Shown here: positions 1 through 13,244 of the stretch, in pieces
How positions within the stretch are numbered: the first letter of the stretch is position 1
Layout: each line of letters opens with the position of its first letter
From: Flavobacteriales bacterium
Lineage (GTDB): Bacteria > Bacteroidota > Bacteroidia > Flavobacteriales_D > Parvicellaceae
DNA: 64,000 nt
Assembly: GCA_025210295.1 (NCBI GenBank)
Contig: JAOASC010000026.1
Coordinates: 1-64,000, forward strand
Direction: 5' to 3'
Made by a program: the position numbers and the translations under genes
Notes under the pieces: model-generated
Database searches by the model: none
Told to the model about the DNA's origin: nothing
Seen by the model: the letters and a program-made list of their open reading frames with translations, nothing else

Positions 1-92
<92 letters not shown>

Positions 93-97
93 TTTTG

Positions 98-3801: not shown

Positions 3802-4439
3802 AATTGAAGAGTTTTATTTCCTGTTATACCATAAGCATATCCTAATGTTGCTAAAAGATAAGATGCTCCTTCTCTTTTACAGGCATTGTCAATAATGTTT
3901 AAAGCTATTTTGATGTTTTCATCATCGATATGACTAAAAGGTTCATCCAATAATAAAAGCTCAAATGGTTGTAAAATAGTACGTATTAAAGCTATACGTT
4001 GTTGTTGACCAATAGATAGTTGGTGAATAGGTTTATTGATATGATCAGTAAGATGGAATTGAGCTATTAGGGATTTAATTTCATCGGTTGTATAATGCTG
4101 CGTTAGTCTATTTTTGATTAATAAGTTATCCCAAACACTTAGGTGTTGAATTAGTTTTAAATCTTGTGGCAAATAAGCTAATCGACAACGTCTTATTGTT
4201 GCCCAATCATTTATTGTTAAATCAGCAATATTTATTCCATCCATGGTAATTAGCCCTGTATAGTCGTTTCGTAAACCAAATAAATAGTTTAGAAGCGTAC
4301 TTTTCCCTTTCCCAGAGTTAGATGAAACAAAATAAGATTGGTTATTCGTTAGTTCTAAATCAGAGTTCCAAACCTCAGATTGGGTTAGGTCTTCCACTTT
4401 AAAAGCAGCTGGAGTAACATTGTTAAGAATTATTTTCAT
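3798..4439 (-). CDS. ABC transporter ATP-binding protein with atypical motifs
   Basis: 213 residues from the ATG at 4439; a longer frame reaches 4493, but its extra 18 residues cover the promoter and do not look like protein. The Walker A region reads SNSGKGKST (residues 40-48), so the first glycine of the usual GxxGxGKST is serine. The Q-loop glutamine is near 92, the signature is LSIGQQQR (141-148), and Walker B is LLLLDEP (161-167). The switch histidine expected about 30 residues after Walker B is not visible: the segment reads LLATLGY. The partner is the FtsX-like permease that overlaps its 3' end. It probably binds ATP, but hydrolysis may be altered. Confidence 0.8.
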   Translation of the reverse strand: MKIILNNVTPAAFKVEDLTQSEVWNSDLELTNNQSYFVSSNSGKGKSTLLNYLFGLRNDYTGLITMDGINIADLTINDWATIRRCRLAYLPQDLKLIQHLSVWDNLLIKNRLTQHYTTDEIKSLIAQFHLTDHINKPIHQLSIGQQQRIALIRTILQPFELLLLDEPFSHIDDENIKIALNIIDNACKREGASYLLATLGYAYGITGNKTLQL

Positions 4440-4460: not shown

Positions 4461-4468
4461 CAAATGTA
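4461..4468 (-). promoter_or_regulatory. -7 promoter element for the ABC operon
   Basis: Read on the minus strand, this is TACATTTG, an exact match to the Bacteroidota TAnnTTTG element, 22 bases before the ATG at 4439. A TTG at the best -33 spacing is not clear. Confidence 0.45.
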
Positions 4469-4489
4469 GTATTTTTACAGTATGAATTA

Positions 4490-4700
4490 ACACCCAAAGA
4501 GGTTCGTTTTAATTCTAGGCGAAAGCTGCCCATACAGTACAGTTTTTTAAACTTAACAATCCTTTTTATTGGGAATTAATTGTTTTAGCTATGGCGTGCC
4601 GACCTTTCTTTATAGATTGTCAGTCGGATTACAGACCTAAGACTGCGTTCTCAACCATGTTAAACAGAAGTTTAACAAACCTCAAATCTGTATGGGTTTT
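4490..4700 (+). ncRNA. Structured small RNA candidate, possibly 6S-like
   Basis: A 430-base gap between the ABC operon and the next minus gene contains no plausible protein but much structure. ACCCA (4492-4496) can pair with TGGGT (4693-4697), and GAGGTTCGTT (4499-4508) pairs with AACAAACCTC (4674-4683) with one mismatch, closing a domain of about 200 nt. Inside are a hairpin CCGAC/GTCGG (about 4599-4627) and an 8-bp hairpin TGTTAAAC-AGAA-GTTTAACA. A competing 9-bp pairing joins CCCATACAG (4529-4537) with CTGTATGGG (4688-4696). A perfect terminator follows on the plus side. The size and closed ends fit a 6S RNA, but the identity is inferred; the strand is chosen because of the terminator and because it diverges from the ABC promoter. 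Confidence 0.45.
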
Positions 4701-4713
4701 TATAGAAAAAATA

Positions 4714-4750
4714 AAAAGACCTTTTAAGTAGCACTTAAAAGGTCTTTTCT
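4714..4750. terminator. Strong bidirectional terminator
   Basis: A perfect 16-bp stem (4714-4729 with 4733-4748) around AGC, with T on the plus side and A on the other. It would end both the plus-strand RNA candidate and the minus-strand lipoprotein gene. Confidence 0.85.
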
Positions 4751-4870: not shown

Positions 4871-5134
4871 TTATTTCAAATCACATTTTTGGATAATTTC
4901 TTGTTTATAGTTTGCAGCATCTGTTCTAGACTCTGTATAACTTAAATCTCCACAAGCATCATCAGCTGATTTTTCTTTCGCTTTGATTGTAATTTCTTTT
5001 TCAAATTTATAGCTATCATTGAAGCCTTGCCCTGACTGTTTGTGTTCTACTTCACATTTACAATCATACTCCTTTGCGCATGAAGTCATTGAAATTGCAG
5101 CAATCGCTACTGAATAAAAAATAATTTTTTTCAT
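4871..5134 (-). CDS. Small lipoprotein of unknown function
   Basis: 87 residues from the ATG at 5134. A frame open back to 5236 lacks signal-peptide character, whereas MKKIIFYSVAIAAISMTSC is a clear lipoprotein signal with the lipobox cysteine at residue 19. The mature part is hydrophilic and has several more cysteines (YDCKCEVEH, DDACGD, IQKCDLK), perhaps forming disulfides. No family recognised; small lipoproteins of this look are common in Flavobacteriales. Transcribed alone and ended by the 4714-4750 terminator. Confidence 0.7.
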   Translation of the reverse strand: MKKIIFYSVAIAAISMTSCAKEYDCKCEVEHKQSGQGFNDSYKFEKEITIKAKEKSADDACGDLSYTESRTDAANYKQEIIQKCDLK

Positions 5135-5328
5135 GATTTTGTTATTTAATAATTTCCAGCAAAGATGAATGGTATTTTGTGATTTGCTAATGACGTTAGG
5201 TAGACTGTGATACCCATTCTGCAAAGAAAGTATCAAATGTCACCTTTTTGTCCCCCTTCTTTTATTGTGCTTACTTCTGAGTGGCATAATTGATGTTATC
5301 TTTGACCAAAACTTAAGAATAGAGAAGT

Positions 5329-12807: not shown

Positions 12808-12868
12808 TATGTTCTTTTATATCTTAACGAGTCTACAAAGGGCAACGTTGCTTTTTGTATAAAATACC

Positions 12869-13240
12869 AAACCTATAAGCCGGGTTCTGTCTCAATTGAA
12901 TTGAGCTCTATCATTTATCTCCACTTATTATCACTAATAAGCTCCATCAACCTACCCTCCAGATTAAGCGAGCAACTTTTTATATAACTAAGGTTATAAA
13001 CTCTGGTATATTTGGTCTTTCAGCGTATGAGGTTTACCTAGCTAATAATGTTACCATTACTACTGGTGAGCTCTTACCTCACCTTTTCACCTTTACCTTA
13101 CCCCAAAAGCAAGGAAGTTTGTTTTCTGTGGCACTTTCTGTATCTCAAATAAAATCAAGACCCTTCCCGTTAGGAAGCATACTGCTCTTCGCTGCCCGGA
13201 CTTTCCTCTCTGAGTATTCAGAGCGATAGAACGGTTTGGC
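12869..13240 (-). ncRNA. rnpB: RNase P RNA
   Basis: Read on the minus strand, the 5' region contains GAGGAAAGTCCGGGC (about 13208-13194) and the 3' region contains AGACAGAACCCGGCTTATA (about 12893-12875), the two most conserved blocks of bacterial RNase P RNA, in the right order and about 320 nt apart. This RNA is the catalytic subunit that matures the 5' ends of tRNAs. The ends are approximate; the 5' end is set six bases after a TATCTTTG -7 box. Nothing in this 520-base gap looks like protein. Confidence 0.93.
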
Positions 13241-13244
13241 GACA

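Follow-up and report, generated by a model that had tools for sequence, protein, structure and literature searches.

6S RNA is a small RNA that restrains the main RNA polymerase in a general way, by imitating an opened promoter. The primary sigma factor of Bacteroidota recognises promoters of an unusual kind, with TAnnTTTG as the consensus of the -7 box. In the 6S RNA of E. coli, the apical arm carries a -35-like region and the 3' central bubble a -10-like one; once pRNA synthesis has opened the bubble-flanking helix, the 3' bubble pairs with the 3' strand of this helix in a 9-bp hairpin, which aids release (PMC8876501). A different collapse helix was described for B. subtilis (PMC8876501). 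6S RNA and pRNAs have been detected experimentally in Bacteroides (PMC7366714), and 6S RNA has been detected in Flavobacterium psychrophilum (PMC9723704). The Rfam families used for comparison were 6S-Flavo (RF01685), Bacteroidales-1 (RF01693), which Rfam labels as a 'suggested' 6S-Bacteroidales RNA, and canonical 6S (RF00013), with gathering cut-offs of 85, 60 and 46.4 bits, respectively.

The window, i.e. the whole stretch of 64,000 nucleotides that was analysed, was compared with Rfam. At the gathering thresholds only RNase P RNA (class A, 12860-13242, minus strand) and a 5S rRNA gene (1-93, plus strand, truncated by the window start) were reported. When matches were reported by E-value, RF01685 gave the best Rfam match across the studied region, at 4551-4673 on the plus strand (41.4 bits, E 5.4e-5). 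The alignment covers model positions 1-108 of 108 and contains two non-standard pairs. RF01693 was also matched at full length on the plus strand (27.3 bits, E 0.014). Because both scores lie below the gathering cut-offs, standard annotation misses the 6S RNA. No match to RF00013 was found anywhere in the whole genome at E values up to 1. A trpB motif and other sub-threshold cmscan matches over the terminator were judged to be chance fits to a U-flanked hairpin. A reading on the minus strand was rejected as well: the opposite strand folds about equally, but all matches to the 6S models are on the plus strand, which is also where a U run succeeds the closing stem.

The region 4490-4750 is intergenic, as expected from the first-pass annotation, which had described this stretch as a gap without coding potential. 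On one side is an ABC-transporter gene on the minus strand with its ATG near 4439; the GTG open reading frame that reaches to 4493 is only an upstream extension of it. On the other side, the gene 4871-5155 is encoded on the minus strand and converges on the RNA. For the neighbouring proteins the analysis covered a Pfam scan, and a check for a phage origin of the region gave no match.

For comparative analysis, 19 relatives were aligned, and a covariance model, R1, was built from 16 of them. The features of the RNA and of its terminator region are as follows.

4528-4699, plus strand: conserved core of the 6S RNA (RF01685 and RF01693 matches, 171.5 bits with R1, covariation).
4528-4537, plus strand: closing stem, 5' strand; two-sided changes in 10/10 pairs, 98% of cells paired.
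4688-4697, plus strand: closing stem, 3' strand, followed by the U run; two-sided changes in 10/10 pairs, 98% of cells paired.
4547-4554, plus strand: bubble-adjoining helix, 5' strand; pairs with 4668-4675 and lies within the predicted pRNA template 4546-4557.
4668-4675, plus strand: bubble-adjoining helix, 3' strand; conserved pairing.
4591-4600, plus strand: conserved apical motif AUGGCGUGCC, invariant in 19/19 sequences.
4626-4635, plus strand: conserved apical motif GGAUUACAGA, of which GGAUUACA is invariant in 19/19 sequences.
4714-4748, no strand assigned: inverted repeat of 16 bp with a 3-nt loop (from the fold), probably a terminator shared with the convergent minus-strand gene.

The region 4490-4750 folds at -68.7 kcal/mol with a z-score of -4.7, terminator included. 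For 4482-4705 alone, which begins at the probable transcript start and ends at the U run, the z-score is -2.85, and 1 of 200 shuffles folded equally well. The core is rod-shaped: the closing stem is followed by the helix 4547-4554/4668-4675, then by a central bubble, and the apical arm carries AUGGCGUGCC and GGAUUACAGA. In the alignment of the 19 relatives, which was not fitted to the model structure, 19 of 39 consensus pairs show two-sided changes and almost none are broken. The helix next to the bubble is conserved in this alignment, with a compensatory change from U-A to C-G. A larger alignment of 35 sequences was fitted to the model structure, so that its counts lean towards that structure; here 93.6% of the cells are paired, and two-sided changes occur in 25 of 31 pairs. 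The covariation score of these 35 sequences was 0.693 compared with 0.232 after shuffling (0/500 shuffles matched it), and sliding the partners by 1-3 columns left 28-45% of the cells paired. Covariation in the closing stem, the inner helices and the apical arm supports the architecture of the 6S class, a structure of about 170-200 nt in which the closing stem leads to a central bubble and the apical arm is interrupted. The closed domain described in the first-pass annotation is real and corresponds to 4528-4697, where 4528-4537 pairs with 4688-4697. What it also described as a perfect terminator is present in the window as the 16-bp repeat and absent from the relatives, in which the closing stem is followed only by a U run.

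The distribution of the RNA was assessed at several levels. When 60 related genomes were searched at the DNA level, 23 contained a match. Of 150 genomes sampled from the order, R1 detected the RNA in 50, with one copy per genome. In the same 150 genomes, RF01685 reported matches in 2, none above its cut-off, and RF01693 in 38, many of them co-located with R1 matches and one above the cut-off; these 150-genome scans used stricter filters, by which weak matches were lost. Relatives of the window within the order reach up to 61.7 bits with RF01693. 6S RNA is therefore poorly annotated in Bacteroidota, and since none of the 150 sampled genomes reaches the RF01685 cut-off, this cut-off reflects the narrowness of the seed rather more than where homology ends. 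At the level of the phylum, 296 well-assembled genomes were scanned with a broader model, R2, and 40 of them gave a match, again with one copy each. No 6S match was obtained by models or motif pattern in several genera that belong to the family of the window. Genomes of four genera are among those without a match, and some of these genomes are 95-99% complete. The absence reflects either loss or strong divergence.

The apical motifs also connect the locus to accepted 6S families. A search of public genomes with the apical-arm pattern AUGGCGUGCC-N-GGAUUACAGA yielded 59 stretches, including loci from Bacteroidales, Chryseobacterium, Elizabethkingia, Bergeyella and Clostridia; the two motifs are common to Bacteroidales, Weeksellaceae and Clostridia loci. 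Five of the Bacteroidales loci exceed the Rfam cut-off for RF01693. R1, which was built without these five accepted members, finds all five as full-model matches (E 2e-5 to 6e-3) at coordinates that agree with Rfam. A Chryseobacterium locus matched both RF01685 and RF01693 below the cut-offs, and a Clostridia locus sharing the apical motif matched RF00013 6S with E 1.8e-4. As a separate observation, seven loci from Christensenellaceae and other Clostridia appear to be 6S RNAs with the same apical motif (GGAUGGCGUGCC/GGAUUACAGAA). Of these, the one tested against RF00013 scored 30.1 bits against the cut-off of 46.4 bits, and would be missed by Rfam annotation.

Taken together, the Rfam matches, the homology to accepted 6S loci, the covariation and the single copy per genome support the proposal of the first-pass annotation, made from size and layout, of a 6S RNA. 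These sequence comparisons give good support to its identification as the 6S RNA of a Bacteroidota member. Very probably, 4528-4699 on the plus strand is the single-copy 6S RNA gene of this flavobacterium, with a leader of ~45 nt and a predicted release cycle as in E. coli. The locus is a divergent copy of an already known regulator, overlooked by standard annotation, and not a new regulator.

That the RNA has a gene of its own is suggested by the one copy per genome and by a promoter inferred by comparison. Upstream of the core the following features were assigned.

4470-4477, plus strand: putative -7 promoter box TATTTTTA, inferred from the alignment, with the probable transcript start at about 4482.
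4482-4527, plus strand: 5' leader with two hairpins (4484-4490/4509-4515; 4518-4520/4525-4527, GAAA cap).

In most relatives of the family, a TTTG-N19/20-TAnnTTTG-like promoter ends 49-54 nt upstream of the core. The automatic promoter scan skipped the box at 4470-4477 because the -33 element is weak in the window. The ABC-transporter gene has a putative -7 box of its own, TACATTTG, at 4461-4468 on the minus strand, which is kept in relatives of the genus; the two putative boxes stand back to back, 1 base apart. The leader is ~45 nt long, and its second hairpin, which is often GNRA-capped, adjoins the closing stem. The two hairpins 5' of the closing stem look covarying and are also seen in another family of the order. 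They recur in families f1 and f8 with arms that are changed yet paired, as judged from single-sequence folds, most of which are individually non-significant; the leader-only alignment is poor for one genus, and the leader hairpins therefore rest on single folds.

Transcription, polymerase binding, pRNA synthesis and release would proceed by analogy with established 6S biology, and two features of the 3' strand bear on this proposal.

4653-4659, plus strand: edge of the central bubble on its 3' side; A4653, U4658 and G4659 are invariant.
4658-4677, plus strand: alternative 3'-strand hairpin UGUUAAAC-AGAA-GUUUAACA (4658-4665/4670-4677), predicted to form when 4546-4557 is blocked.

In the proposed cycle, the bubble would imitate an open promoter and sequester RNA polymerase with the primary sigma factor. 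On return of nutrients, the polymerase would use the 5' strand as template for a short pRNA that begins near C4557; the predicted pRNA is 5'-GUUAAGUUUAAA, from the template 4546-4557. Its synthesis would unwind the helix 4547-4554/4668-4675, and the freed 3' strand would fold into the hairpin 4658-4665/4670-4677, so that the RNA is released as in E. coli.

The invariant A4653, U4658 and G4659 are spaced like A-11, T-6 and G-5 in TAnnTTTG, the box of the Bacteroidota. A4653 lies at the upstream edge of the bubble, and when the count is continued from it, +1 comes out no more than one base away from the position that faces C4557. With its A-N4-UG sequence, the edge of the bubble may imitate the -7 box. 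Some genera of another family lack the G, so that this mimicry stays a lead. Folding with 4546-4557 blocked predicts the hairpin 4658-4677 in the window and in close relatives, and its local fold has a z-score of -4.5, with no shuffle equally good. In four other relatives the 3' strand pairs downstream instead, e.g. AGAGGUUU/AAACUUCU, and in a few (L006, L012 and L112) the free RNA itself already prefers the hairpin. Among the relatives, the mean z-score against shuffles is -1.84 for the 3' strand and -0.28, hardly better than shuffled, for the 5' strand. No clear hairpin was obtained for the Bacteroidales members. The predictions are suggestive, not proof, of a conserved capacity for a 3'-strand hairpin with changed partners. 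Covariation in the hairpin is inseparable from the constraint on the competing helix. The folds suggest a rewiring, in which the group of the window pairs the upstream bubble sequence (UGUUAAAC, E. coli-like) and sister genera pair downstream (AGAGGUUU/AAACUUCU). A combined view, in which flavobacteria kept the 3'-strand hairpin but rewired its partner and the bubble edge may mimic the -7 box, the 6S RNA following the divergent sigma factor, is offered tentatively, as possible rather than probable.

The first-pass annotation had pointed to two crossing long-range pairings, 4529-4537/4688-4696 and 4499-4508/4674-4683, and had read them as a pseudoknot or as alternative states. Both complementarities are present in the window, and the former is the closing stem, paired in 19/19 family sequences with compensatory changes. 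The latter forms 9 of 10 pairs in the window and keeps 8-10 of 10 within the genus, where three G-C pairs become G-U in L006 and L007; all changes there are one-sided. In every other genus it falls to 2-5 of 10 pairs, dinucleotide shuffling of the region produces a long-range complementarity of this kind in 7.5% of cases, and its 5' arm lies on the loop side of the leader hairpin 4484-4490/4509-4515. The covariation check proposed along with the pairings thus upheld the closing stem and left the other pairing unsupported. With only one of the two conserved, a conserved pseudoknot was rejected, and a pseudoknot or a two-state switch between the leader and the 3' strand is very unlikely. An alternative state probably does exist according to the folding predictions, but as the local hairpin of the 3' bubble strand.

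Two readings concern function rather than fold. A structured RNA could be homologous to 6S-Flavo and Bacteroidales-1 and still not act as 6S RNA, for example as an Ms1-like core binder or as a ligand of another protein. Ms1 has a 6S-like shape and is reported to bind core polymerase instead (PMC9130861), RF01693 is labelled as 'suggested' 6S, and the function here is deduced from homology; on the other hand, pRNAs of the 6S RNA have been seen in Bacteroides (PMC7366714), and the bubble, the predicted pRNA-dependent hairpin and the sequence link to RF00013 all fit 6S RNA, which leaves this reading a very slim chance. A riboswitch or attenuator in the leader of a downstream gene would suit the intergenic position and the terminator-like repeat at the end. 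The next downstream gene, 4871-5155, is however on the opposite strand, the relatives keep the RNA structure while the downstream content varies, and the Rfam matches are to sRNA families. Gene orientation and the covariation in 35 sequences largely refute such a cis-regulatory leader, and its probability is close to nil.

Read as a 6S RNA, the locus yields concrete predictions for a system with a non-standard promoter, namely the pRNA start, the release hairpin, the -7 mimic and the structured leader. In addition, the alignment and models join RF01685 and RF01693 into one homologous group that is tied to canonical 6S RNA. With 6S-Flavo (Weinberg et al. 2010, PMC2864571) the window shares the apical arm, the bubble sequences ACUYAAC and GAGUUU/AAGUUU, and the match over the full length of the model. 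The branch of the window differs in that AAACUU/AAGUUU replaces ACUC/GAGU, in scoring 41.4 bits against 85, and in extending further, since the Rfam model includes neither its closing stem nor its leader. Bacteroidales-1 is equal in extent, closing stem included, although the window scores 27.3 bits against its cut-off of 60. The 5' leader seen in the branch of the window is part of neither model. Homology to canonical 6S/SsrS RNA, which gave no match in the genome, is visible only via intermediates such as the Clostridia 6S RNAs, whereas the rod, the closing stem, the central bubble and the apical arm are common to the window and the 6S RNAs of E. coli and B. subtilis. With E. coli 6S RNA (PMC8876501), the window further shares the predicted hairpin of the 3' bubble once the bubble-flanking helix opens.
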